From a virus, in the IMG/VR virus record IMGVR_UViG_3300017917_004176, positions 1 through 64,000 of that record: a stretch of DNA of 64,000 bases. One strand, given 5' to 3'. Of the stretch, positions 1 to 8,747 are shown piece after piece. Position numbers and translations under genes: made by a program. Every line of letters begins with the position of its first letter. Positions within the stretch are counted from its first letter, which is position 1. The notes below the pieces were generated by a model, which worked only from the letters and a program-made list of their open reading frames with translations, searched no databases and was not told the DNA's origin.

Positions 1-110
1 TGGAAAATATGACAGAAAACTGGAAATATTTTCCAGAAAATAGGGTTTCCAATTTTTTCCAGAAAAATTGGAAGAAACTTCCAGTGGGGTCTGTCAAATT
101 TTTGTATAGG
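1..110. repeat. TTCCA/TGGAA-rich repeat tract
   Basis: A non-coding stretch dense in short TGGAA and TTCCA words that form overlapping inverted repeats (for example ATTTTCCAG and CTGGAAAT). The same vocabulary returns at 2822-2925, 5268-5312 and 7440-7770. No ORF fits it. An origin, a protein-loading site or a recombination-prone filler are all possible. Confidence 0.5.
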
Positions 111-114
111 TGGC

Positions 115-140
115 AACCCTATCAAAAAATTGTATAGGTT
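115..140. promoter_or_regulatory. Operator-like inverted repeat, copy 1
   Basis: Arms AACCCTAT and ATAGGTT flank an AAAAAA core; an extra half site TTGTATAGGT lies just left at 102-111. It is 20-25 bases upstream of the -35 box at 162. Four related sites precede other rightward promoters, which suggests one DNA-binding regulator. Confidence 0.5.
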
Positions 141-161
141 AAAAAAAATTAAAAATAATAC

Positions 162-190
162 TTGCAATTTATTTCATTATCGTTTATTAT
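162..190 (+). promoter_or_regulatory. Promoter TTGCAA-17-TATTAT
   Basis: A -35 box at 162-167 and a -10 box at 185-190 with a 17-base spacer, 38 bases before the first gene. Several early genes share the TATTAT(AAT) form of the -10 box. Confidence 0.7.
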
Positions 191-228
191 AATAATGTAA
201 GATAAATAAAAAAAAGGTGGTTGTTCAA

Positions 229-525
229 ATGTTGGAATTAAAAAATGTAAATGGTGTTACTTATGATTATGACTTCGATTTGAAGTCAGAAATCTTGTCA
301 GAAAAATTGGTAGATATGTACCAAATTGGTTTTGCACAAGATTATGGAATTACCCTTCAAGATGCAGAAAAAATGTTTCTTGATTATCAGGCTCTATCTA
401 CAAAACAATTGCTTGTGCAGTTGCAGTCACTTGGTTACCTTTCAAATGAAGGCTCTGAAAATCGTGACTACGATTTAGAAATTGAAATGGTAATGTGCAT
501 ACTACTTAACGAACGCGTTAGGTAG
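229..525 (+). CDS. Early hypothetical protein, 98 aa
   Basis: I do not recognise this small acidic protein. The frame is open from a GTG at 217, but that codon lies inside the AAAAAGGTGG ribosome site, so the ATG at 229 (MLELKNVNG) is the better start. No signal peptide or membrane segment is visible. It follows a strong early promoter and precedes another small gene by 34 bases, as expected for a phage early or host-takeover gene. Confidence 0.7.
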   Translation: MLELKNVNGVTYDYDFDLKSEILSEKLVDMYQIGFAQDYGITLQDAEKMFLDYQALSTKQLLVQLQSLGYLSNEGSENRDYDLEIEMVMCILLNERVR

Positions 526-559
526 TATCACAAAAAAAATATAAAAGGTGGAATAAAAA

Positions 560-739
560 ATGAGATACGAATTTGGAATGGAATTGAATGAAATGGAAAT
601 AGCAGACTTAATGAATGAATACTCTGAACTTGAAATGGCAAGAGAATACTACGCTGACGACTATTCAGAACAAGATTTTAATATAGCAGAACGAGCACTT
701 TTTCAAAGGGCGGCAGAACTTCAAGCAAGAATAAGATAA
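560..739 (+). CDS. Early hypothetical protein, 59 aa
   Basis: ATG at 560 follows AAAAGGTGG by 10 bases. The 59-residue product is rich in Glu, Met and Ala and looks entirely helical (MRYEFGMELNEMEIADLMNE at the N-terminus). It has no membrane segment. It probably shares the promoter of the gene before it and ends just ahead of a GC-rich hairpin. Function unknown. Confidence 0.65.
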   Translation: MRYEFGMELNEMEIADLMNEYSELEMAREYYADDYSEQDFNIAERALFQRAAELQARIR

Positions 740-740
740 C

Positions 741-763
741 AGGAAGGGCTTTACAGCCCTTCC
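741..763 (+). terminator. Hairpin GGAAGGGC/GCCCTTCC
   Basis: An 8-bp perfect GC-rich stem with loop TTTACA directly after the 59-aa gene. The following T-run is weak, so it may be a weak terminator or an RNA 3' end protector. Confidence 0.5.
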
Positions 764-827
764 ATATATTTCCAAAATAACGAAAAATTTCGTTGCTAAA
801 ATCTTCAAAAAATGCTTGACATTTTTT

Positions 828-847
828 GCCATTCGCACGCGAATGGC
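828..847. repeat. Palindrome family member 1 (9-2-9)
   Basis: GCCATTCGC-AC-GCGAATGGC: 9-bp arms around two bases, preceded by CTTGACA. First of nine palindromes whose arm sequences differ but stay complementary. It sits in the expected 5' part of a leftward RNA starting near 854. Confidence 0.7.
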
Positions 848-860
848 AAGTTTGATGCGA

Positions 861-889
861 ATTTTACCACGAAAAATTGCATATGTCAA
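861..889 (-). promoter_or_regulatory. Leftward promoter TTGACA-17-TAAAAT
   Basis: On the minus strand TTGACA (plus 884-889), a 17-base spacer and TAAAAT (plus 861-866). It points left into palindrome 1, away from the rightward promoter at 934-962, giving a divergent pair in the gap before the 90-aa gene. Confidence 0.65.
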
Positions 890-933
890 GAGTTTTTTTC
901 AAATAATTTTTTTATTTTTTCCCAAAAAAAGTA

Positions 934-962
934 TTGCTTTTTTGCTTGTATTCTTGTATTAT
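934..962 (+). promoter_or_regulatory. Promoter TTGCTT-17-TATTAT
   Basis: -35 at 934-939 and -10 at 957-962, 17-base spacer, 34 bases before the 90-aa gene. Box and spacing match the promoter at 1422-1450. Confidence 0.7.
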
Positions 963-996
963 TAAAGTATCAAATAAACCAAAGGGGTTATGAAAA

Positions 997-1269
997 ATGA
1001 AAAGAGAAACTATGATGAATTGGATTGCAAGTGTTGATGAAATGGCGGCTACTTGGTCTCAAAAAGAATTGGAGTTTGAAATGAACAAACCAAAAACTTT
1101 TGACCCAGAAATCGTTGATGACTTAATCGACACTATACTCGACTACTGCATAGAAAATGCAAAAAATCGTACTCTGTCTCACCCACACTCTTGGGAACTT
1201 ATGAGACTTATGGGAGTACCACAACAAATCATTGATGATGAGGAGTTGGGAGACTTTCCTATCAGATAA
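997..1269 (+). CDS. Early hypothetical protein, 90 aa
   Basis: Single-gene transcription unit with its own promoter (934-962), an AAAGGGG ribosome site and a terminator immediately after the stop. The product (MKRETMMNWIASVDEM...) is soluble, acidic and mostly helical by eye. No domain is recognised. The layout of one small gene per promoter and terminator is typical of host-takeover regions in large Bacillus phages; the role is inferred from context only. Confidence 0.7.
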   Translation: MKRETMMNWIASVDEMAATWSQKELEFEMNKPKTFDPEIVDDLIDTILDYCIENAKNRTLSHPHSWELMRLMGVPQQIIDDEELGDFPIR

Positions 1270-1342
1270 AAAAGCCGAAAGGCTTTTTTTATTTTATAAT
1301 TGACAAACGCTCGGGGCACGCGAGATCGCGTGCTATTTTTGA
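1268..1342 (-). ncRNA. Predicted leftward small RNA 2 (about 75 nt)
   Basis: Bounded by a perfect leftward promoter (1349-1377) and a terminator that is symmetrical on both strands (1270-1290). It contains palindrome 2 at 1316-1333 (GCACGCGA-GA-TCGCGTGC). No start codon with a ribosome site is visible. The predicted product is a two-hairpin RNA with a U-tail. Ends are estimated from promoter geometry. Confidence 0.5.
1270..1290. terminator. Bidirectional terminator AAGCC-GAAA-GGCTT
   Basis: A-tract, GCC stem with a GAAA loop, then T-tract. It reads as an intrinsic terminator on both strands, so it would end both the 90-aa gene and the leftward RNA from the promoter at 1349-1377. Confidence 0.8.
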
Positions 1343-1348
1343 TGAGAA

Positions 1349-1377
1349 ATTATACGCGAAAAATTAGAGTATGTCAA
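1349..1377 (-). promoter_or_regulatory. Leftward consensus promoter TTGACA-17-TATAAT
   Basis: On the minus strand a perfect TTGACA (plus 1372-1377), 17-base spacer and perfect TATAAT (plus 1349-1354). The segment ATTTTTCGCG before the -10 is shared with the leftward promoters at 1764-1792 and, as ATTTTTTCGTG, 2159-2187. Confidence 0.8.
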
Positions 1378-1421
1378 GAGTTTTTTTAAAAAATTTTTTT
1401 TAATTTTCCTATAATTTATAG

Positions 1422-1450
1422 TTGCTTTTTTTGTAGTAGTCATGTATTAT
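1422..1450 (+). promoter_or_regulatory. Promoter TTGCTT-17-TATTAT
   Basis: -35 at 1422-1427, -10 at 1445-1450, followed by AATAGTATAA as in the other early rightward promoters. Drives the 71-aa gene at 1484. Confidence 0.7.
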
Positions 1451-1483
1451 AATAGTATAACAAGCAAAGGGAGACGATAAACA

Positions 1484-1699
1484 ATGACACAAAAAACGCG
1501 CTACGAGGTAAACTTTGAGGGGTTGCATTTTGAACACGAAGTAGGCACTCATTATATATGGGTGCGCGAGGTTGGAAAGGGTCCAGATAGCGAGGCTATC
1601 GACTGCATGTCGTTTCAGTGGGAAAAAAATCAAACTGAATTAACTCGACCTGAATTTCTTTCTAGGGTGCTTCGCTACAATGCCGAACTACTAAAATAA
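1484..1699 (+). CDS. Early hypothetical protein, 71 aa
   Basis: ATG at 1484 follows AAAGGGAGACG. The 71-residue product (MTQKTRYEVNFEGLHFEHEV...) is soluble, with an early part likely beta-rich and a helical C-terminus. I recognise no family. It has its own promoter and its own terminator, whose stem begins at the stop codon. Host-takeover gene by position only. Confidence 0.7.
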   Translation: MTQKTRYEVNFEGLHFEHEVGTHYIWVREVGKGPDSEAIDCMSFQWEKNQTELTRPEFLSRVLRYNAELLK

Positions 1700-1757
1700 G
1701 CCGAAAGGCTTATTTTTTTTATCGTTCGAGCCTCTCGCGATCGAGAGGCATTTTTGA
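1694..1757 (-). ncRNA. Predicted leftward small RNA 3 (about 64 nt)
   Basis: Lies between the leftward promoter at 1764-1792 and the symmetrical terminator AATAAGCC-GAAA-GGCTTATT at 1696-1720. It contains palindrome 3 at 1730-1749 (GCCTCTCG-CGAT-CGAGAGGC). Same architecture as small RNA 2 but with different stem sequence. Confidence 0.5.
1696..1720. terminator. Bidirectional terminator AATAAGCC-GAAA-GGCTTATT
   Basis: An 8-bp stem with GAAA loop that starts in the stop codon of the 71-aa gene and is followed by eight T. The A/T flanks make it usable from both sides. Confidence 0.8.
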
Positions 1758-1763
1758 CATAAA

Positions 1764-1792
1764 ATTATACGCGAAAAAATGCGAAATGTCAA
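1764..1792 (-). promoter_or_regulatory. Leftward consensus promoter TTGACA-17-TATAAT
   Basis: Minus-strand TTGACA (plus 1787-1792), 17-base spacer, TATAAT (plus 1764-1769). Divergent from the rightward promoter at 1837-1865. Confidence 0.8.
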
Positions 1793-1836
1793 TAGTTTTT
1801 TTTGAATGTTTTTTTAATTTTTCCCTAAATTATTTA

Positions 1837-1865
1837 TTGACTTTTTTTACTCTTTTATGTATTAT
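1837..1865 (+). promoter_or_regulatory. Promoter TTGACT-17-TATTAT
   Basis: -35 at 1837-1842 and -10 at 1860-1865 followed by AATAGTATAA. Drives the 56-aa gene at 1900. Confidence 0.7.
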
Positions 1866-1899
1866 AATAGTATAAATAAAAAAAAGGTGGTTTTCAAAA

Positions 1900-2070
1900 A
1901 TGTTAAAATCCGAGTTTGTTGTCCAAGTTTCAAATGACCTTATTATTGTGACTGATTTAGTCACAGGTGAGCGCTGGGAAACTTCTCACGAGTACCTTGC
2001 CGATATTATGCAAGTCTTGACTGACCGCGTTAAATACGCAGTCGAAGACTTCGCAGAAAAACAAGAATAA
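1900..2070 (+). CDS. Early hypothetical protein, 56 aa
   Basis: ATG at 1900 with AAAAAGGTGG 13 bases upstream of the ATG. The 56-aa acidic protein begins MLKSEFVVQVSNDLIIVTDL and ends in a helical charged tail. No family recognised. It has its own promoter and a terminator directly after the stop, the same unit structure as its neighbours. Confidence 0.65.
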   Translation: MLKSEFVVQVSNDLIIVTDLVTGERWETSHEYLADIMQVLTDRVKYAVEDFAEKQE

Positions 2071-2152
2071 AAAAAGCCGAAAGGCTTTTTTTATTTTACA
2101 AAAAAAAACCTTGACATTTTTTTTGCCTTGCGCTGGCGCAAGGTTTTTTTGA
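2069..2152 (-). ncRNA. Predicted leftward small RNA 4 (about 84 nt)
   Basis: Lies between a perfect leftward promoter (2159-2187) and the symmetrical terminator at 2071-2094. It contains palindrome 4 at 2126-2143 (CCTTGCGC-TG-GCGCAAGG). Third complete promoter-hairpin-terminator unit of this design. Confidence 0.5.
2071..2094. terminator. Bidirectional terminator AAAAAGCC-GAAA-GGCTTTTTTT
   Basis: Same stem-loop as at 1270-1290, directly after the 56-aa gene. Symmetrical A and T tracts suit both directions. Confidence 0.8.
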
Positions 2153-2158
2153 TGCAAA

Positions 2159-2187
2159 ATTATACACGAAAAAATAAGAGTTGTCAA
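2159..2187 (-). promoter_or_regulatory. Leftward consensus promoter TTGACA-17-TATAAT
   Basis: Minus-strand TTGACA (plus 2182-2187), 17-base spacer, TATAAT (plus 2159-2164). Confidence 0.8.
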
Positions 2188-2290
2188 TAGTTTTTTGAAA
2201 AAATTTTTTTATTTTTCCTATAATTTTTTATTGACTTTTTATTGATAATTTGAGATGATAATAATACCAAAAGAAAAGGAAGTGTTAAAA

Positions 2291-2764
2291 ATGAAGGAAA
2301 TGATTTTTATTGATTTAGATGATACTATCGCGGAATTTGAACTCGGGGGTGGCAAAGAAAAAATGCACGAACAAGGTTTTTTTAGAAACTTGGAAATGAA
2401 ACACCAAGCAAAAAATACCATTCATTTTTTGAAATATGTATATGACGGAAATATCCATATTCTCTCAATGTGTATTGATACACCATATTGCAAAACTGAA
2501 AAAATGGAATGGGTACGCGAACACTTGCCATTTATCAAAAAAGAAAATATCCATTTGATTATGGGAATATCAAAAGCCGATTATGTACTAGAAAAGTTTA
2601 ATCTTTCTACTCTTGAAAATCTTACTCTAATTGATGACTATAAAGTCAATTTAATAGAGTGGCAAAATAAAGGTGGTCGCGCTATCAAGTTTGGAAAAAC
2701 AATAAAACAAAATCGCCCATACGAACAAATGAATGATTGGTGGATAGGCTTGAACCTTGTATAA
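2291..2764 (+). CDS. HAD-superfamily 5'(3')-deoxyribonucleotidase-like protein
   Basis: The N-terminus carries the HAD nucleophile motif DLDDT (residues about 7-11), and near the C-terminal third there is a second acidic pair, LIDDYKVN, typical of the Mg-binding end of the fold. At 157 aa it is close to phage 5' nucleotidase-like proteins, which dephosphorylate deoxynucleotides. ATG at 2291 is chosen because AAAGGAAG lies 9 bases upstream; the frame stays open upstream to 2255. Likely role is trimming nucleotide pools early in infection. Substrate not determined from sequence. Confidence 0.65.
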   Translation: MKEMIFIDLDDTIAEFELGGGKEKMHEQGFFRNLEMKHQAKNTIHFLKYVYDGNIHILSMCIDTPYCKTEKMEWVREHLPFIKKENIHLIMGISKADYVLEKFNLSTLENLTLIDDYKVNLIEWQNKGGRAIKFGKTIKQNRPYEQMNDWWIGLNLV

Positions 2765-2780
2765 GGTTCAAGTTTTTTTT
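2749..2780 (+). terminator. Terminator CTTGAACCTT/AAGGTTCAAG
   Basis: A 10-bp perfect stem with loop GTAT and eight T. The stem contains the last codons and the stop of the HAD gene. Confidence 0.85.
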
Positions 2781-2809
2781 ATGCAAAAAAAACACTTGAC
2801 AATTTTTTG

Positions 2810-2827
2810 CCAGTCGCAGGCGACTGG
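2810..2827. repeat. Palindrome family member 5 (8-2-8)
   Basis: CCAGTCGC-AG-GCGACTGG, preceded by CTTGACAA. Unlike members 1-4 it is not followed by a leftward promoter; TTCCA-rich sequence follows instead. Confidence 0.65.
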
Positions 2828-2925
2828 AAAAATTTGGAAAAAATGGTAATTCCAATTTCTACCAGTCCAAAAAATTACCATTTTTTTCCAAAAAATTTTT
2901 TTCCCAAAAATTTCCAGGAACCCCC
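2822..2925. repeat. TTCCA/TGGAA-rich tract
   Basis: Short inverted repeats such as TGGTAATTCCA and ACCATTTTTTTCCA, the same word set as 1-110 and 7440-7770. Non-coding. Confidence 0.45.
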
Positions 2926-2948
2926 CTTTAAAAATTTGAATGGGTGGT

Positions 2949-2974
2949 AACCTATACAAAAATTTGGATAGGTG
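2949..2974. promoter_or_regulatory. Operator-like inverted repeat, copy 2
   Basis: AACCTATACAAAAATTTGGATAGGTG read as two arms, ACCTATACAA and TTGGATAGGT. It lies 13 bases before the -35 box at 2987. Confidence 0.5.
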
Positions 2975-2986
2975 TGTTTTTTGCGC

Positions 2987-3016
2987 TTGACTTTTTTTTG
3001 CTTGGGGTGTTATACT
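2987..3016 (+). promoter_or_regulatory. Promoter TTGACT-18-TATACT
   Basis: -35 at 2987-2992, -10 TATACT at 3011-3016, 29 bases before the SprT-like gene. Confidence 0.6.
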
Positions 3017-3044
3017 TATAGTAGACAAAAAAGGGGGTGTAAAC

Positions 3045-3488
3045 ATGAAAACAAAAATAAGCATAAGCAACGCAACACAAGAGCAACGCAAAATTATAAA
3101 GCGCGTAACTGAATTTGTAGCGCAAGAACTTTTTCCGCGCCATCATATCTATATACAATATACCATGAAAAACTTGGATGCCTATGGGTACTGCATATAT
3201 ACATATGACAATATAAAACCAAGACACTTTACCATTGAATTGGAAAAAAACATGAATAAAAAACTTTTGACTGAAACTATAATACACGAACTAATTCATG
3301 TAAATCAAATGGCGCGTGAAATCTTAAAAGATAGATATGGTATCAATGAAAAAGAGCAATTTGTAGAATTGAAAAAAATATGGAAAGATAAAGATTATAC
3401 AAGCGCGCCTTATTCAAGGCAACCTTGGGAACGACAAGCATATCGAATGGAAAAAAAATTAATGAAAAAATGGAGTGTGATGAAATGA
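3045..3488 (+). CDS. SprT-like zinc metallopeptidase, copy A
   Basis: The 147-aa protein has the zincin motif HELIH (residues about 85-89) in a helical context like SprT/Spartan-family minimal proteases. The two His would bind zinc and the Glu would be catalytic. The C-terminal half is basic and could touch DNA. The stop overlaps the start of the exonuclease gene by ATGA. A diverged copy of both genes lies at 5437-6603. An RBS AAAGGGGGTG precedes the ATG. Phage SprT-like proteins may remove protein from DNA, but the target here is unknown. Confidence 0.65.
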   Translation: MKTKISISNATQEQRKIIKRVTEFVAQELFPRHHIYIQYTMKNLDAYGYCIYTYDNIKPRHFTIELEKNMNKKLLTETIIHELIHVNQMAREILKDRYGINEKEQFVELKKIWKDKDYTSAPYSRQPWERQAYRMEKKLMKKWSVMK

Positions 3489-4180
3489 GAAAAAATTATT
3501 TTTTGTTAGTTGATACTGAAACTGCGGGAACATTTGCTGAAAAATGGGTATATGATATTGGTATAGTTGTTACTGATAGAAAAGGCAACATTCAAAAGCA
3601 ATACGCATTTTTAGTAAAAGAAATTTGGGAAAATAAAAAAGCAATGAATAGCGCGTACTATCGTGAAAAAATACCTACATATACAAAAGAAATAAAAAGT
3701 AAAAATTATGAAATAAAAAACTTTGCCGATATTCTAGAAACAATTTATTCACTAATTGATGAATATCAAATAAAAACAATAACTGCCTACAATTTAGTTT
3801 TTGACTTAGATGCCCTACAAAAAACAAGCCAAGCAATTTTAGGCGAAACGCACAAGTTTGAAAAATTAAAAAAATTGTGTATATGGTCGTTTGCTTGTGA
3901 AGTACTTTACACGCAAAAAACTTATAAAAAAATTGCAACACAACAAAATTGGTTAAAAGAAAATACAAATAATTTAATGACTAGCGCCGAAGTTGGTTAT
4001 AGATACATTACAAAAAATTATGACTTTATCGAGGAACACAAAGGCATACATGACGCGCTAATCGAAAATAAAATACTAGCAAAATGTTTTGCGCAAAACA
4101 AAAAACATATTTCAGGTGTGATAAGTCACCCATGGAAAATACCAAATGGAAAAATGAAACTAGCCAAAAAAAATGGCTAG
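3485..4180 (+). CDS. DnaQ-like DEDD exonuclease family protein, copy A
   Basis: A 231-aa protein with ordered DEDD motifs: Exo I DTET near residue 10, Exo II YNLVFDLDAL near residue 100, and a C-terminal HDALIEN. In classical DEDDh enzymes the last motif is HxxxxD; here the acid is Glu, and the paralog has the same change. The ATG at 3485 overlaps the preceding stop, so the two are probably translationally coupled. Its last bases form one arm of the terminator. Activity as a 3'-5' nuclease is inferred from family; the Glu swap leaves this open. Confidence 0.6.
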   Translation: MRKNYFLLVDTETAGTFAEKWVYDIGIVVTDRKGNIQKQYAFLVKEIWENKKAMNSAYYREKIPTYTKEIKSKNYEIKNFADILETIYSLIDEYQIKTITAYNLVFDLDALQKTSQAILGETHKFEKLKKLCIWSFACEVLYTQKTYKKIATQQNWLKENTNNLMTSAEVGYRYITKNYDFIEEHKGIHDALIENKILAKCFAQNKKHISGVISHPWKIPNGKMKLAKKNG

Positions 4181-4187
4181 TTTTTTC
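4158..4187 (+). terminator. Terminator ACTAGCC/GGCTAGT
   Basis: A 7-bp stem plus T-run that includes the stop codon of the exonuclease gene. The equivalent position after copy B has a stem with a different sequence (ACTAGGC/GCCTAGT). Confidence 0.8.
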
Positions 4188-4201
4188 TTGACATCGTTCT
4201 T

Positions 4202-4221
4202 GCCCTTCGAGATCGAAGGGC
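4202..4221. repeat. Palindrome family member 6 (9-2-9)
   Basis: GCCCTTCGA-GA-TCGAAGGGC, flanked by TTGACA at 4188-4193 and TGTCAA at 4230-4235. No -10 box is seen on either strand. Confidence 0.65.
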
Positions 4222-4256
4222 ATGTTTGTTGTCAATAGTTTTTTGCAATTTTTTAC

Positions 4257-4280
4257 AACCCATACAAAAAATTGAATAAG
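4257..4280. promoter_or_regulatory. Operator-like inverted repeat, copy 3
   Basis: AACCCATACAAAAAATTGAATAAG; left arm strong, right arm degenerate. 24 bases before the -35 at 4304. Confidence 0.45.
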
Positions 4281-4303
4281 TCTATTTTTTTATCCCAAAA
4301 TGC

Positions 4304-4332
4304 TTGACTATGTATTTTTTTTAGTGTATTAT
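4304..4332 (+). promoter_or_regulatory. Promoter TTGACT-17-TATTAT
   Basis: -35 at 4304-4309 and -10 at 4327-4332, 27 bases before the 34-aa gene. Confidence 0.7.
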
Positions 4333-4358
4333 TAGAGTATGAAAAGGAAGTGATATTT

Positions 4359-4463
4359 ATGCAAAAAGTTTTGGATATTCTTAACCCAAAATACACAAAT
4401 GATGAAACTATTAAAATGGCTTTTCGTTGTGTAAACTTGGCAATTCAAATGTTGAGTAGATAA
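4359..4463 (+). CDS. Mini-protein, 34 aa, copy A
   Basis: ATG at 4359 after AAAAGGAAGTG. The product ends MAFRCVNLAIQMLSR and resembles the 33-aa product at 6805-6906, which supports coding. It looks like one amphipathic helix. A 10-bp hairpin (4451-4478) encloses the stop codon, and the paralog has the same arrangement with a different stem. Function unknown. Confidence 0.55.
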   Translation: MQKVLDILNPKYTNDETIKMAFRCVNLAIQMLSR

Positions 4464-4478
4464 AAAAATCTACTCAAC
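4451..4478 (+). promoter_or_regulatory. Hairpin enclosing a stop codon, copy A
   Basis: GTTGAGTAGA, loop TAAAAAAA (begins with the stop), TCTACTCAAC. No T-run follows; instead the ribosome site of the next gene does. It may govern translation of the PQ-loop gene or read-through. Confidence 0.5.
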
Positions 4479-4498
4479 AAAAAAAGGTGGTGGCAAAA

Positions 4499-4750
4499 AT
4501 GTTTGACATTTTAGTTTTAATTGGTGGTTTAGTTGTTGCTTTTGGAACAATTCCACAAATTGAACAAATGGTTAGAACAAAATCAGTCAATGATATAAAT
4601 CTAACAAATGTTATTTTAACCCTAGTTGGTATAGTAATGATGATGACATATTCTATTCATTATAACTTAACATTTTTAATTTTAGCAGACTTTATAAACT
4701 TTGTTCTAGTCCTAGTAGTTTTAATTTTACGCTTGCACTATGCCAAATAA
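4499..4750 (+). CDS. SemiSWEET / PQ-loop small membrane transporter
   Basis: An 83-aa, three-helix membrane protein. Helix 1 ends with the PQ motif (GTIPQ, residues about 17-21), followed by the basic segment MVRTKSVNDIN, helix 2 and helix 3. Length and layout match bacterial SemiSWEETs, which act as dimers and move sugars or other small solutes. The ATG at 4499 has AAAAGGTGG 10 bases upstream, so the frame start at 4487 is not needed. It sits between the 34-aa gene and a regulator-like gene and is absent from the second copy of this module. Substrate unknown. Confidence 0.65.
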   Translation: MFDILVLIGGLVVAFGTIPQIEQMVRTKSVNDINLTNVILTLVGIVMMMTYSIHYNLTFLILADFINFVLVLVVLILRLHYAK

Positions 4751-4761
4751 TATGGTATAGT
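4733..4761 (+). promoter_or_regulatory. Promoter TTGCAC-17-TATAGT
   Basis: Overlaps the end of the PQ-loop gene; -10 at 4756-4761. Gives the 126-aa gene its own start. Confidence 0.6.
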
Positions 4762-4807
4762 GTAAGAGTAAGGCAAATAAAAAAATCTAAAAAAAGGGGT
4801 GTTGTCT

Positions 4808-5188
4808 ATGATGACAAACAAACAAGTTTTTATTTCAGAAATTGAAAACTTAAAATCTCAATTATCTGAAAATGCTCAAAATTATTTTGAGCAAGTAGTA
4901 AAGGCAAAAAAAGTAAATCGCAAGGAAAAAGAAAAATCAGAAATCTTAAAATCTGAAATCTTAAAGTTCCTACAAGAAAACAAAAATAAAATGTTTTCTC
5001 GCGATGAAATTGCAAAATCACTTTTTGACAATGCCGATATTGATGAACAATATCTGCTAAATGATAAAAATGAAATTGCCTACAATTCCATTACTGCTTT
5101 TGCAAATCAACTCGCCGAACTTGGAACAATTTCCAAAATGGAAGTCAAGCAAGGCAAGACAAAAAAAGTCAAGTACTTTTTGAAATAA
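4808..5188 (+). CDS. Possible winged-helix protein, paralog 1 of 3
   Basis: A 126-aa, lysine-rich protein. Residues about 30-45 include VVKAKKVNRKEKEKSE. The C-terminal part, with SITAFANQLAELG then a basic beta-like tail (KQGKTKKVKYFLK), suggests a winged-helix fold. Paralogs are at 6979-7359 and 8382-8747. RBS AAAGGGGTG lies 7 bases before ATG 4808; the frame start at 4799 falls inside it. DNA binding is inferred from charge and shape only. Confidence 0.55.
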   Translation: MMTNKQVFISEIENLKSQLSENAQNYFEQVVKAKKVNRKEKEKSEILKSEILKFLQENKNKMFSRDEIAKSLFDNADIDEQYLLNDKNEIAYNSITAFANQLAELGTISKMEVKQGKTKKVKYFLK

Positions 5189-5210
5189 GCCGAAGGGCTT
5201 ATTTTTTTTT
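5184..5210 (+). terminator. Terminator AATAAGCC-GAAG-GGCTTATT
   Basis: 8-bp stem with GAAG loop starting within the stop codon, followed by eight or more T. Confidence 0.85.
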
Positions 5211-5238
5211 GTTAAGGGTACTTGACAAAACGCCCGAG

Positions 5239-5256
5239 CCCTTCGAGCTCGAAGGG
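5239..5256. repeat. Palindrome family member 7 (perfect 18-mer)
   Basis: CCCTTCGAGCTCGAAGGG, a perfect palindrome, preceded by CTTGACAAAACGCC and followed by GTTTTTGG. TTCCA-rich sequence follows at 5268-5312. Confidence 0.65.
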
Positions 5257-5349
5257 AGTTTTTGGTAAAGATGGTAATTTCTGGAAAAATTGGAAGCCCA
5301 ATCTTTCCATTTTTTACCTTATCACTTTTTCCCAAAAATGTCAAGTCTT

Positions 5350-5374
5350 ACCCATACAAAAAATTGATAGGGTT
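5350..5374. promoter_or_regulatory. Operator-like inverted repeat, copy 4
   Basis: ACCCATACAAAAAATTGATAGGGTT, arms ACCCAT(A)CAA and TTGATAGGGT, ending 4 bases before the -35 box at 5379. The closest operator-to-promoter spacing of the five. Confidence 0.55.
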
Positions 5375-5378
5375 ATGC

Positions 5379-5407
5379 TTGACAACCCTTGACAAAAATG
5401 AGATACT
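5379..5407 (+). promoter_or_regulatory. Promoter TTGACA-17-GATACT
   Basis: -35 at 5379-5384, -10 at 5402-5407. A second TTGACA at 5389 overlaps. Drives SprT-like copy B. Confidence 0.6.
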
Positions 5408-5436
5408 AGATAGAGATAAAAGAAAGGAGATTTTTT

Positions 5437-5874
5437 ATGCGTACAAAAATAGCAATTTATGGGGCTACAAAAGAGCAAAGAAAAATTGTTCAAGGCGTTG
5501 TACAATTTATGGTAAGTGAATTGTTTCCACGCTATCAAGTAAGAATTGATTTTTATTTCAAAACACTTGACGGGGTAATGGGATATTGTGATTATAAATA
5601 CGATAATTATAAACCTCGTGATTTTCAAATTGAAATAGAAAAAACTTTATCGGATAATTTGCTAGTAGAAACTATCATTCATGAAATGATACATATTGAG
5701 CAAATGGTTACAGAAAAATTAAAATATCGATATGGTAAGATTTTTGACTTGAAACAATTTTGGTATGATAGAGATTTTTCAAATGCAGAATACGATAAGC
5801 AACCTTGGGAAAAAGACGCGTATAAAAGAGAAGTTGTTTATATAAAAAAACTTGCCAAAGTATTAAAAGTTTGA
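5437..5874 (+). CDS. SprT-like zinc metallopeptidase, copy B
   Basis: A 145-aa paralog of the protein at 3045-3488. It shares the start (MRTKIAIYGATKEQRK against MKTKISISNATQEQRK), the zincin motif HEMIH and the C-terminal QPWEKDAYKRE block. RBS AAAGGAG precedes the ATG. The next gene is the matching exonuclease, 45 bases on rather than overlapping. Likely a tandem segmental duplication followed by divergence; both copies keep the zinc and catalytic residues, so both are probably active. Confidence 0.65.
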   Translation: MRTKIAIYGATKEQRKIVQGVVQFMVSELFPRYQVRIDFYFKTLDGVMGYCDYKYDNYKPRDFQIEIEKTLSDNLLVETIIHEMIHIEQMVTEKLKYRYGKIFDLKQFWYDRDFSNAEYDKQPWEKDAYKREVVYIKKLAKVLKV

Positions 5875-5919
5875 TAAGATTAAAGAGTAATAAAATTATA
5901 AAATTGGAGATGATTAAAA

Positions 5920-6603
5920 ATGAAAAATTATTTTTTGCTAGTAGATGTTGAAACAACGGGGGGCTTTTCTGAAAAATTGATTTACGATATTGGAATATGT
6001 GTAACTGATAGAAAAGGAAACATTCAAGAAAAATACGCGTTTTTAATTGATGAGATTTGGAACGATAAAGACTTAATGAGCAATGCGTATTATAAAGAAA
6101 AAGTTCCTACTTATCAAGTTGATATTGATAACAAAACTTATGAAATAAAAACTTTTCTTGAAGTCTTAAATATCATGTACGCGTTAATTGATAAGTACAA
6201 AGTAAAAACAATATCGGCTTATAACTTAATGTTTGATTTAGACGCGTTGAAAAAAACAAGCGAAAAACTTTTACAAGAAAAACACGATTTTGAAAAATTA
6301 CAAAAATTATGTATATGGTCATTCGCTTGTGAAGTTCTTTATACTCAAAAAACTTATCAAAAAATAGCAGTCAAACAAAATTGGGTAAAAGAAAAAACTC
6401 AAAACTTATTGACGAATGCAGAAGTTGGCTATAAATACATAACTAAAAATTATGATTTTATAGAGCAACATAAAGGCTATCACGATATGATGATAGAAAA
6501 TGAAATACTTGCTAAATGCTTTTCACAAAACAAAAAACATCTATCGGGAATGCTTGTCCACCCTTGGAAAATACCAAATAAAACTAGGCTAAAAAATGCC
6601 TAG
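5920..6603 (+). CDS. DnaQ-like DEDD exonuclease family protein, copy B
   Basis: A 227-aa paralog of 3485-4180, similar along the whole length (shared LCIWSFACEVLYTQKTY block and the C-terminal HPWKIPN). It has DVET at Exo I, YNLMFDLDAL at Exo II and HDMMIEN at the last motif, again with Glu where DEDDh enzymes have Asp. RBS GGAGATGA is 9 bases before the ATG. Likely a nuclease acting early in infection; substrate unknown. Confidence 0.6.
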   Translation: MKNYFLLVDVETTGGFSEKLIYDIGICVTDRKGNIQEKYAFLIDEIWNDKDLMSNAYYKEKVPTYQVDIDNKTYEIKTFLEVLNIMYALIDKYKVKTISAYNLMFDLDALKKTSEKLLQEKHDFEKLQKLCIWSFACEVLYTQKTYQKIAVKQNWVKEKTQNLLTNAEVGYKYITKNYDFIEQHKGYHDMMIENEILAKCFSQNKKHLSGMLVHPWKIPNKTRLKNA

Positions 6604-6611
6604 TTTTTTTG
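6582..6611 (+). terminator. Terminator ACTAGGC/GCCTAGT
   Basis: 7-bp stem with A-rich loop and T-run, overlapping the stop codon of the exonuclease gene, matching the arrangement at 4158-4187. Confidence 0.8.
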
Positions 6612-6635
6612 TTTGTCTATTGACAAACGCCCTTG

Positions 6636-6653
6636 CCCTTCGAATTCGAAGGG
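6636..6653. repeat. Palindrome family member 8 (perfect 18-mer)
   Basis: CCCTTCGAATTCGAAGGG, preceded by TTGACAAACGCCCTTG and followed at 6671 by TTGTCAAG. Confidence 0.65.
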
Positions 6654-6688
6654 GAAGTTTAATTGTCAAGACAATTTCACAATTTTTT

Positions 6689-6712
6689 TGAACCCATACA
6701 ATTTTTTGAATA
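6689..6712. promoter_or_regulatory. Operator-like inverted repeat, copy 5
   Basis: GAACCCATACAATTTTTTGAATAA; left arm matches copies 3 and 4, right arm weak. 26 bases before the -35 at 6738. Confidence 0.45.
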
Positions 6713-6737
6713 ACCCTATTTTTTTTCCTAAAAATAC

Positions 6738-6765
6738 TTGCTTTTATTATTGTATAGTGTATAAT
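6738..6765 (+). promoter_or_regulatory. Promoter TTGCTT-16-TATAAT
   Basis: -35 at 6738-6743, -10 at 6760-6765, 40 bases before the 33-aa gene. Confidence 0.6.
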
Positions 6766-6804
6766 AAGAGTGTAAGGAAAATTGATATAAAGAAGGTGTT
6801 TTAT

Positions 6805-6906
6805 GTGGTTAAGGTTGTTTACAGAGTTTTACCTAAATTGGCTGATGAGGAAGTAATTAAACTTGCTATCCGAATTATCAATTTGGCTTTGACAAGCATG
6901 AGATAA
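6805..6906 (+). CDS. Mini-protein, 33 aa, copy B
   Basis: The GTG at 6805 gives VVKVVYRVLPKLADEEVIKL at the N-terminus, which aligns by eye with the 34-aa protein at 4359. The overlapping ATG at 6803 opens another frame and shows no such match, so GTG is preferred. RBS AGAAGGTG is 7 bases upstream. As in copy A, a hairpin encloses the stop. Function unknown. Confidence 0.5.
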   Translation: MVKVVYRVLPKLADEEVIKLAIRIINLALTSMR

Positions 6907-6919
6907 AAAATCATGCTTG
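6893..6919 (+). promoter_or_regulatory. Hairpin enclosing a stop codon, copy B
   Basis: CAAGCATGA, a loop that holds the stop, then TCATGCTTG. Same place as 4451-4478 but with unrelated stem sequence. Its right arm overlaps the -35 box of the next promoter. Confidence 0.5.
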
Positions 6920-6946
6920 ACAAATCAAAAAAAATCATGGTATAAT
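6917..6946 (+). promoter_or_regulatory. Promoter TTGACA-18-TATAAT
   Basis: -35 at 6917-6922, -10 at 6941-6946. Drives the 126-aa gene at 6979. Confidence 0.75.
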
Positions 6947-6978
6947 AAAGTATACCAAAAAAAAAGGAGATGTTTTTT

Positions 6979-7359
6979 ATGATGACACAAAAACAAATGT
7001 TCATCAAAGAAGTTGAAATGTTGAGAAACCAACTTTCACAGGAAGGTCAAACCTATTTTGACCAAGTAGTAAAAGCGAAAAAAGTCAATCGCAAAGAGCA
7101 AGAAAAAGCAACTGCTATGAAGTCTGCTATTCTTGAAGTATTGACTGCTAGAAAAGGTCAGTTTCTAAATCGTGTTGAGATTATGTCTCAAATCGAAAAA
7201 CTTGACCTAGTATCGCCAGAGTTTTTGTACAATGATAAAGATGAATTATCATTCAACTCTGTAACTGCTTTTGCTAATCAGTTAGTAGAGCAAGGCAAAC
7301 TTGACAAGCAAGAAGTCAAGCAAGGCAAAGTCAAAACTATCAAGTATCGACTAGTCTAA
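6979..7359 (+). CDS. Possible winged-helix protein, paralog 2 of 3
   Basis: A 126-aa paralog of 4808-5188 with the same order: helical N-terminus, VVKAKKVNRKEQEKA, a central helical part, SVTAFANQLVEQG, and a basic tail KQGKVKTIKYRLV. The ATG at 6979 is chosen because the upstream ATG at 6970 lies inside AAAAAGGAGATG. It has its own promoter and terminator. Probably DNA-binding; not shown. Confidence 0.55.
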   Translation: MMTQKQMFIKEVEMLRNQLSQEGQTYFDQVVKAKKVNRKEQEKATAMKSAILEVLTARKGQFLNRVEIMSQIEKLDLVSPEFLYNDKDELSFNSVTAFANQLVEQGKLDKQEVKQGKVKTIKYRLV

Positions 7360-7387
7360 AAAAAAAGGGGAAACCCTTTTTTTTTGC
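7358..7387 (+). terminator. Terminator AAAAGGG-GAAA-CCCTTTT
   Basis: A-tract, GGG-GAAA-CCC stem, nine T; begins at the stop codon. Likely works in both directions. Confidence 0.85.
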
Positions 7388-7414
7388 TTTGAAAAAACTT
7401 GACAAACGCCCTTG

Positions 7415-7432
7415 CCTCTCGATTTCGAGAGG
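7415..7432. repeat. Palindrome family member 9 (8-2-8)
   Basis: CCTCTCGA-TT-TCGAGAGG followed by TTTTTG, preceded by CTTGACAAACGCCCTTG, the same upstream block as member 8. Confidence 0.65.
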
Positions 7433-7439
7433 TTTTTGA

Positions 7440-7820
7440 ATTTTCAGAATTGTCTGACAATTCAGAAACTTCCAAATTTTGGAAAATTTTCCAGTATTTT
7501 CTTTCCTGAATCCAGGACCCCCTCTATATACGAATTTAGATACCGCCCGCGCGCTTTCCAGCGGTTTTCCAGATTTTTCCAATTTTTCTAAAAATTGGAA
7601 TTTCCAAATTTTTCCAATTTTTCCATGAGGCCGATTCCTGGAAAAGGACCCGCCCTATATACGCAAATCAAACGGAGTCCGCTCGTAGTCCAGCGGTTTC
7701 CAGGATTTTCCAAATTTTCCAAAATTTTGGAATTTCCAAATTTTTCCATTTTTTCCAGAGGCGTAATTCCTGGAAACAGGAGGGGCCTATATAACCAAAT
7801 CACTCGGAAATCCGATCGCT
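7440..7820. repeat. Three near-repeats rich in TTCCA/TGGAA
   Basis: This non-coding stretch holds about three copies of a 130-150 base unit. Each has a run of TTCCAAATTTT/AAAATTGGAA words, then CCTGRAnnAGG, then a CTATATA segment (7528, 7652 and 7789), and two carry TCCAGCGGTTTCCAG-like blocks. Open frames on both strands here are caused by the repeats. Candidate origin or protein-binding array. Confidence 0.55.
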
Positions 7821-7932
7821 CTCCATCGGTTATCACACCAGGAGCCAGCTGTCAAGTATTTACACGACTCCGATTTCTTTCCGCCCGACCGCCCCGCCCT
7901 TCTGGAAACACCACCCCCCCGCCTGACATCGC

Positions 7933-7961
7933 TTGACAAATGGGAGCCTTTATGTTATAAT
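7933..7961 (+). promoter_or_regulatory. Tandem promoter 1 of 5, TTGACA-17-TATAAT
   Basis: -35 at 7933-7938, -10 at 7956-7961, both perfect. No gene follows directly; the next promoter is 60 bases on. Confidence 0.75.
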
Positions 7962-8020
7962 AGAATTGATTGCCTATTTTTTATTCTCCCATACCACAGC
8001 CGTCCCGCTTCGAGGGTGGC

Positions 8021-8049
8021 TTGACAATCCCGCTCCATCATGCTATAAT
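8021..8049 (+). promoter_or_regulatory. Tandem promoter 2 of 5, TTGACA-17-TATAAT
   Basis: Perfect boxes at 8021-8026 and 8044-8049, followed by TATTATATAA, a downstream signature shared with many promoters in the window. Confidence 0.8.
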
Positions 8050-8107
8050 TATTATATAAAGAAAAAAATCTTTTTATGGGGAGCGGGAGCCGCACTTCTG
8101 TGAGCCC

Positions 8108-8136
8108 TAGACAAAATGATTTTTCTATGTTATAAT
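8108..8136 (+). promoter_or_regulatory. Tandem promoter 3 of 5, TAGACA-17-TATAAT
   Basis: -35 at 8108-8113, -10 at 8131-8136, then TATTATATAAGG. Confidence 0.7.
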
Positions 8137-8193
8137 TATTATATAAGGTTGAGATTTGTTAAAACTGATTTCGAGCGAGAGTTCTGGTGAGTG

Positions 8194-8222
8194 TTGACAA
8201 ATTGAAAATCTTATGGTATAAT
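8194..8222 (+). promoter_or_regulatory. Tandem promoter 4 of 5, TTGACA-17-TATAAT
   Basis: Perfect boxes at 8194-8199 and 8217-8222, then TATTATGTAAGG. Confidence 0.8.
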
Positions 8223-8301
8223 TATTATGTAAGGTTGAAAAAGTTAAAAAACACCTTACGAACTTCGGTTCGCGAGCAAGTAGTCGGCCTTCGGAAAAAG
8301 G

Positions 8302-8330
8302 TTGACAAAATGTTTCAAGCATGATATAAT
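8302..8330 (+). promoter_or_regulatory. Tandem promoter 5 of 5, TTGACA-17-TATAAT
   Basis: Perfect boxes at 8302-8307 and 8325-8330, then TATCATGTAAGG; 51 bases before the gene at 8382. Between promoters 4 and 5 a GAACTTCGGTTCG hairpin is visible. Confidence 0.8.
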
Positions 8331-8381: not shown

Positions 8382-8747
8382 ATGTCGAGAGCACAATTTG
8401 TACAAGAAGTAGAGAAAATGGAGTTGTCACCAGAAGCGAAGGCTTATTTCGCGAAGTCTTTCAAGGCACCACGCGTGAACAAGAAAGAACAAGAAAAAGC
8501 ACAGGCAATGAAAGACGCTATCCTTGCAGTACTCGGCCAGTCAGATGACGCATTAGACCGCGAGACAATCGCCAATGCTATCAACGACGCAGCCAATCTG
8601 CCAGAAGAGTACTTGGTCAATGACAAGGGCGACCTTGCTGTCAACTCAATCACTGCATACGCTAACCAATTAGTAGCAGAAGGTTCTGTTGTTAAGGTAC
8701 AGGTTAAAGTAGGCAAAGCGAAACGCGTACACTACAAATTAGCGTAG
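8382..8747 (+). CDS. Possible winged-helix protein, paralog 3 of 3
   Basis: A 121-aa paralog of the proteins at 4808 and 6979 (shared RVNKKEQEKA, the SITAYANQLVAEG block and a basic C-terminus KAKRVHYKLA). Its codons end in G or C much more often than those of its paralogs, so it probably has a different recent history. RBS GGGGGGC lies 10 bases before the ATG. Five stacked promoters feed it, suggesting very high early expression. Function not established; a DNA-binding early protein is plausible. Confidence 0.6.
   Translation: MSRAQFVQEVEKMELSPEAKAYFAKSFKAPRVNKKEQEKAQAMKDAILAVLGQSDDALDRETIANAINDAANLPEEYLVNDKGDLAVNSITAYANQLVAEGSVVKVQVKVGKAKRVHYKLA

Follow-up and report, generated by a model that had tools for sequence, protein, structure and literature searches.

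A Previously Undescribed, Repeated Backward Promoter–Hairpin Element at Early Operon Boundaries of Gut Phages

The Early Region and Its Repeated Units

The stretch of DNA analyzed here, referred to as the window, covers positions 1–64,000 of an IMG/VR virus record of 92,171 bp and belongs to a tailed, AT-rich phage whose DNA polymerase has its nearest counterparts in Enterococcus phages and SPbeta. No DNA-level matches to the first 6 kb of the window were found in the phage collection, and an exact search of viral contigs for the window's own promoter motif returned no match. Four units (U1–U4), lying beside genes for five small proteins without a Pfam match, are composed of the following features together with the promoters and terminators of the adjacent genes:

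816–821, plus strand: U1, compact TTGACA without a −10, adjoining the hairpin
826–849, minus strand: U1, hairpin TTGCCATTCGC..GCGAATGGCAA, a GC-rich palindrome
861–889, minus strand: U1, leftward promoter TTGACA-17-TAAAAT, predicted transcription start ~854
934–962, plus strand: rightward promoter TTGCTT-17-TATTAT, back to back with U1, recognized by eye
1268–1289: U2, terminator with an A run before it and a T run after it, common to the gene at 997–1269
1300–1305, plus strand: U2, compact TTGACA
1315–1334, minus strand: U2, hairpin, containing the GC-rich palindrome 1316–1333
1349–1377, minus strand: U2, leftward promoter TTGACA-17-TATAAT, predicted transcription start ~1342
1422–1450, plus strand: rightward promoter TTGCTT-17-TATTAT, back to back with U2, recognized by eye
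1693–1716: U3, two-way terminator, common to the gene at 1484–1699
1730–1749, minus strand: U3, hairpin, a GC-rich palindrome
1764–1792, minus strand: U3, leftward promoter TTGACA-17-TATAAT, predicted transcription start ~1757
1837–1865, plus strand: rightward promoter TTGACT-17-TATTAT, back to back with U3
2066–2095: U4, two-way terminator, common to the gene at 1900–2070
2111–2116, plus strand: U4, compact TTGACA
2125–2144, minus strand: U4, hairpin, containing the GC-rich palindrome 2126–2143
2159–2187, minus strand: U4, leftward promoter TTGACA-17-TATAAT, predicted transcription start ~2152
2231–2259, plus strand: rightward promoter TTGACT-17-GATGAT, back to back with U4

The four minus-strand promoters of the original prediction, each facing a GC-rich palindrome (826–2187), were confirmed and are not a product of chance: four of the five TTGACA-17-TAWAAT sites in window positions 1–8000 face a palindrome, while 300 dinucleotide shuffles of the same stretch contained on average 0.013 promoters and never a promoter together with a palindrome. 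The rightward promoters said to stand back to back with the units are also present, those of U1 and U2 being weaker. The claim that the units end in terminators working on both strands held for U2, U3, and U4 but failed for U1, where the stem at 742–763 lacks a leftward T run. In U2–U4, the leftward promoters lead into T-run terminators, giving predicted RNAs of ~64–90 nt.

Between positions 826 and 7433, the window harbors nine palindromes that share the design GCCNNTCG-N4-CGANNGGC, each situated just past the terminator of a gene. The leftward −10 is restricted to the first four of them (U1–U4); the other five, overlooked in the original prediction, all lack it:

2796–2828: U6, TTGACA and hairpin (2809–2828), leftward promoter absent
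4188–4235: U5, TTGACA, hairpin (4201–4222), and TGTCAA, without a −10 on either side
5222–5257: U7, TTGACA and hairpin (5238–5257), leftward promoter absent
6620–6669: U8, TTGACA, hairpin (6635–6654), and TGTCAA, without a −10 on either side
7399–7433: U9, TTGACA and hairpin (7414–7433), leftward promoter absent

A plus-strand TTGACA is found 6–10 nt to the left of the palindrome in eight of the nine copies. Seven of the eight pair positions are Watson–Crick in every one of the nine hairpins, and doubly changed cells number 13, compared with 3.7 in shuffles. The pairing is therefore kept across differing stems in the window, in agreement with the earlier suggestion that structure, and not stem sequence, is retained.

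Other peculiarities of this region include early genes present as tandem paralogs, either two (3045–3488 and 5437–5874; 3482–4180 and 5920–6603) or three (4808–5188, 6970–7359, and 8382–8747), an arrangement that looks like the duplication of a block. Additionally, five rightward promoters close to the consensus follow one another at intervals of ~85 nt in 7933–8330 (7933, 8021, 8108, 8194, and 8302), with GC-rich leaders between them and a single following gene (8382–8747).

Related Elements in Other Phages

The gene encoding a DnaQ-like exonuclease (window 3482–4180 and 5920–6603) served as a lead to relatives, namely Enterococcus phages H1 and EF1, Phass-1, and 72 viral loci. A scan of the exonuclease-linked loci revealed backward promoters followed by GC-rich hairpins, e.g., in Enterococcus phage H1, where TTGACA-17-TAAAAT precedes CGCTCGCCAGCGAGCG in the same arrangement as in the window. 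Backward promoters in the H1 record lie near 100,070. Searches with two covariance models (promoter plus hairpin, and hairpin alone) yielded a family of 223 distinct hairpins in ~45 related gut phage records, the backward promoter being present in about half of the copies. The hairpin model was positive in 21 of 32 records and in 21 of 21 further records, the latter preselected by the exact promoter–hairpin pattern. This pattern was encountered in 37 viral-contig stretches but in only three in bacterial genome assemblies, so the element is phage-borne. The highest count per genome, 20 copies, was found in G027 (40.7–65.2 kb of 165 kb); another genome, G030, harbors 18 copies (77.9–101.3 kb) along with one opposite-strand echo of an already-counted palindrome.

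The hairpin of the relatives has a fixed length of 27 nt and a partly conserved asymmetric 9-nt loop, while that of the window measures 20 nt; CG steps are conserved in the arms of the hairpin. Since the window version has 20-nt hairpins, the window's record gave no match to the 27-nt hairpin covariance model (R2). What the window version and the relatives' family have in common is architecture and not sequence: several copies on one strand, each with a backward consensus promoter and a hairpin by its start, a convergent gene with its terminator ahead, and a divergent gene behind. In L027, a near relative by exonuclease, a short hairpin accompanies the promoter spacer of the relatives, so that this locus bridges the two versions.

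The search of Rfam at gathering and permissive thresholds returned only tRNAs and chance matches and no family for the element, and no family member was detected in 50 kb of SPbeta. The aggregate folding energy after convergent promoters showed no distinct signal, as the classes had been mixed by crude gene calls. The repeated backward promoter–hairpin element is previously undescribed.

Several other arrangements were documented in the same set of phages. In Phass-1 (L023, 2969–3060 and 5173–5263) and in L057, a GC palindrome is flanked by two consensus promoters pointing at each other, which makes a symmetrical version of the element. In phage H1 (L021), gene-end stem-loops at 5778, 7717, 8509, 10241, 10677, and 11543 contain in the loop or inner stem a TTGACA or TTGACT that is the −35 of the next gene, i.e., a terminator-like hairpin overlaps the promoter. 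Non-coding stretches crowded with one short word and its complement are found in the window (1–90, 2830–2930, and 7440–7770) and in L019 (5560–5680 and 7081–7390), L051, L053, L044, L055, and L039. The packed words differ between lineages (TTTCCA/TGGAAA; TGTAAA/TTTACA; TTATGTAAAC; ACCAATTGGT), and such stretches are possibly the sites of a lineage-specific DNA-binding protein.

Constraint on the Promoter and on Pairing

For an unbiased test of linkage, all strict-consensus promoters in the early blocks were chosen blind to the downstream sequence. The −10 was directly followed by a hairpin (7 or more pairs) in 71 of the 91 element-strand promoters; the corresponding figures were 9 of 260 for gene-strand promoters and 0 of 91 for shuffles. 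Between relatives, 69 of 4518 positions (1.5%) were changed in the backward −35 and −10 hexamers versus 1944 of 6296 (31%) in the spacer, a contrast that is somewhat inflated, since the best hits may include paralogs and promoter coverage was required. The gene promoters behave similarly, with 112 of 9072 hexamer positions (1.2%) and 32% of the spacer changed. Among ortholog pairs (26 in all), the promoter-bearing copies displayed no changes in 168 hexamer positions and 36 in 238 spacer positions. Both the blind linkage and the hexamer conservation indicate that the leftward promoters predicted originally are real, under selection, and tied to the hairpin.

Across the relatives, pairing is kept while the stems change, and at some orthologous sites the whole stem is replaced with the flanks kept. 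The covariation counts of the hairpin model are partly built in, since palindromicity was one of the grounds on which its training sequences were chosen. Diversification of the stems as a means of keeping the copies within a genome distinct was not supported, as the copies from the same genome are slightly more alike.

Compact copies, with TTGACA 5–9 nt from the hairpin and no −10, occur in L099, L109, L110, L112, L115, L129, L130, and L132, as well as in the window (U5 and U8). The compact TTGACA is conserved between orthologs in spite of the missing −10, hence it may do more than serve as a −35.

Placement and Spacing of the Copies

In almost every record, the copies of a genome all share one strand, opposite to the genes, and they are confined to an early block of ~25 kb or less. 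In G027, the copies mark the ends of operons comprising one to six genes. Of the 157 copies that could be tested, 143 point toward a convergent gene, and a divergent gene lies behind 135. In 105 promoter-bearing copies, the hairpin starts 7–9 nt past the −10. The spacing is exact, TTGACA lying 30–31 nt and TATAAT 7–8 nt ahead of the stem. The distance from the backward to the forward promoter falls into narrow classes (~44–48, 58–60, and 68–70 nt), which suggests that the two promoters may be under joint control. A gene-strand T run of 5 or more follows the hairpin in 35 of 83 promoterless copies versus 4 of 87 promoter-bearing ones; a second terminator seems to replace the backward promoter, with termination and counter-transcription apparently serving as alternatives.

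In L075, L076, L077, L036, and other loci, the intergenic DNA between the backward and forward promoters shares a motif, TCCCGAAA or TCCTAAA, close to the forward promoter; the motif often sits inside an inverted pair TTGCACAA..TTGTGCAA, and its counterpart in the window is TTTTTCCC or TTTTTCCT. Inverted word repeats around the hairpins were rejected as a general feature, being limited to some lineages.

Possible Functions of the Element

The units were originally regarded as discrete, terminated small RNAs. As a property of the family, this notion was not supported. The hairpin is equally well paired in the roughly half of the 223 copies that have no leftward promoter, and a T tract reading leftward at the gene terminator is not enriched next to the backward promoter (30% of promoter-bearing versus 34% of other copies, p = 0.75). 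Outside the window, many predicted leftward RNAs have no obvious intrinsic stop at the gene terminator. Moreover, the ratio of G-U to A-C in the family stems is 9:10 versus 52:13 in intrinsic terminators from the same loci (Fisher p = 0.008), the 3:2 in the promoter-bearing subset alone being too small to decide. An early G-U excess (7:2, p = 0.09), seen among a few selected copies, did not survive the addition of further copies and of the terminator control. The similar G-U and A-C counts fit a hairpin needed on both strands, be it as RNA or as DNA.

The family itself, its one-strand orientation, the linkage of promoter to hairpin, the conservation of the hexamers, and the pairing can be regarded as established at the level of sequence. 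The interpretation which we tentatively favor, and consider quite possible, is that of a multi-copy cis-acting boundary module separating or regulating neighboring early operons. Situated past the terminator of one operon and ahead of the promoter of the next, the module would consist of a GC-rich stem-loop and, in about half of the copies, a consensus host-type backward promoter. We infer that this promoter fires during infection toward the end of the preceding operon, yielding an RNA headed by the stem-loop, and that this RNA would act in cis, with the two-way stem-loop also acting locally. As a result, adjacent early operons would be separated, or else the upstream operon would be regulated by convergent or antisense transcription, as is cII by lambda OOP RNA.

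This boundary function is consistent with the blind linkage of promoter and hairpin (71/91), the constraint on the hexamers, and the stereotyped setting of the copies, i.e., on one strand, at operon ends, with a convergent gene ahead and a divergent gene behind. The narrow classes of promoter spacing and the gene-strand T runs of the promoterless copies also agree with it, as does the equality of G-U and A-C, expected of a hairpin used on both strands. However, the leftward stop is not enriched in the promoter-bearing copies, and the predicted U2–U4 RNAs would overlap the upstream mRNA little beyond the terminator. A simple insulator would also leave unexplained the fixed 27-nt length and the partly conserved 9-nt loop of the relatives' hairpin, and the boundary reading does not account for the TTGACA beside the hairpin in compact copies without a −10.

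Alternatively, the units may encode trans-acting small RNAs (decoys, anti-defense RNAs, or regulators), stable molecules of 60–90 nt in which only the shape matters and in which a 5′-terminal hairpin would be followed by an A-rich linker and a terminator hairpin. Selection on the promoter, the hairpin placed 7–9 nt after the −10, and a structure outlasting the stem sequence argue for this possibility, along with the presence of up to 20 copies per genome, the partly conserved asymmetric loop, and the two-way terminators in three of the four window units. Still, the same hairpin in the promoterless half of the copies, the lack of enrichment in leftward termination, the lack of a G-U excess, and the lack of an Rfam match speak against it, and it seems less likely than the boundary module, though a serious alternative.

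The palindrome may also operate at the DNA level, being bound by a phage protein or acting as a DNA hairpin or cruciform, in concert with the adjoining TTGACA or a lineage-specific word; the backward promoter would then be an add-on in some lineages. Such an element would explain why the hairpin is kept without the promoter and the compact TTGACA without a −10, and it accords with Watson–Crick pairing on both strands (9:10 versus 52:13 in terminators), the fixed length (27 nt, or 20 nt in the window), and the conserved CG steps in the arms. On the other hand, the arm sequences are too different for an ordinary operator, whole stems are swapped between orthologs, and none of 16 records contains a Y1 transposase. 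The exact coupling to the promoter and the transcription start also points to transcription. A function in DNA seems about as likely as the trans-acting RNAs and is likewise a serious alternative.

It seems rather improbable that the copies constitute a new class of phage non-coding RNA with up to ~20 paralogs per genome, free stem sequence, and a function in early infection depending on structure only, e.g., as a decoy for a defense protein or a host RNA-binding protein; each such RNA would be the product of a backward consensus promoter and start with a fixed-size hairpin. Recombination cassettes like the PeSL elements of T4, kept for gene shuffling, are highly improbable in spite of the swapping of orthologous stems and of repeats that fall between genes where the early region consists of small, variable genes, since the ends of homologous blocks fall within 40 nt of the hairpins in 2.7% of cases versus 2.4% expected, and the cassettes would not need a constraint on the promoter hexamers.

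Returning to the boundary module and its backward promoters, if these fire, hairpin-headed counter-transcripts would arise at almost every early operon boundary in many gut phages, having been missed by gene-centered annotation. Crowded early genes would be kept apart in a new way, or else phages would possess a new kind of RNA. The family also supplies a sequence model, and similar elements are present in two named isolates, Enterococcus phages H1 and EF1.

Comparison with Known Systems

In type I toxin–antitoxin systems of Gram-positive bacteria such as Fst/par, a gene and a small RNA are convergent and partly share a two-way terminator. Here, by contrast, the neighboring genes are diverse, and the predicted RNA would barely overlap the mRNA. 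The PeSL cassettes of T4-type phages, which Arbiol et al. (2010) are said to have described, reportedly combine a promoter serving the downstream gene with a stem-loop at the boundaries of early small genes. The element described here resembles them in the repetition of promoter plus stem-loop at gene boundaries, but its hairpin-linked promoter points backwards, and recombination breakpoints are not enriched at the hairpins. An origin from REP or IS200-IS605 elements was rejected, as the Y1 transposase (PF01797) was detected in 0 of 16 records, with control genomes positive.

The SPBRE operators of SPbeta are a fixed 15-bp motif at promoters, bound by MrpR (PMC10516654). They too recur between genes, and the DNA polymerase of SPbeta is related to that of the window's phage; in our case, however, there is no conserved sequence motif, and the stems vary with the pairing kept. 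In RNA anti-CRISPRs, or solitary repeat units, a promoter is immediately followed by a non-coding hairpin of the phage (PMC10651486), whereas the hairpins under study have many copies with differing stems, all at operon ends. Mimicry of CRISPR repeats (Racr) was not supported, as there was no match among the Rfam CRISPR repeat families.

The lambda OOP RNA, transcribed from the promoter pO to the terminator tO and present in a single copy, overlaps the end of the cII coding sequence by 52 bases (PMC5869508). The predicted U2–U4 RNAs would end at terminators located at or just after the stop codons; for want of the coding-end overlap, membership in the OOP type is not claimed. The phages studied here also differ from lambda in having many copies per genome and a separate hairpin at the 5′ end of the RNA. 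The short leftward RNA of lambda ends at a hairpin terminator, as would those predicted for U2–U4, but a leftward stop is not enriched across the family. Nevertheless, lambda OOP RNA is the known system that works most similarly: in both cases, a host-type leftward promoter lies between two rightward genes and is convergent with the upstream gene.
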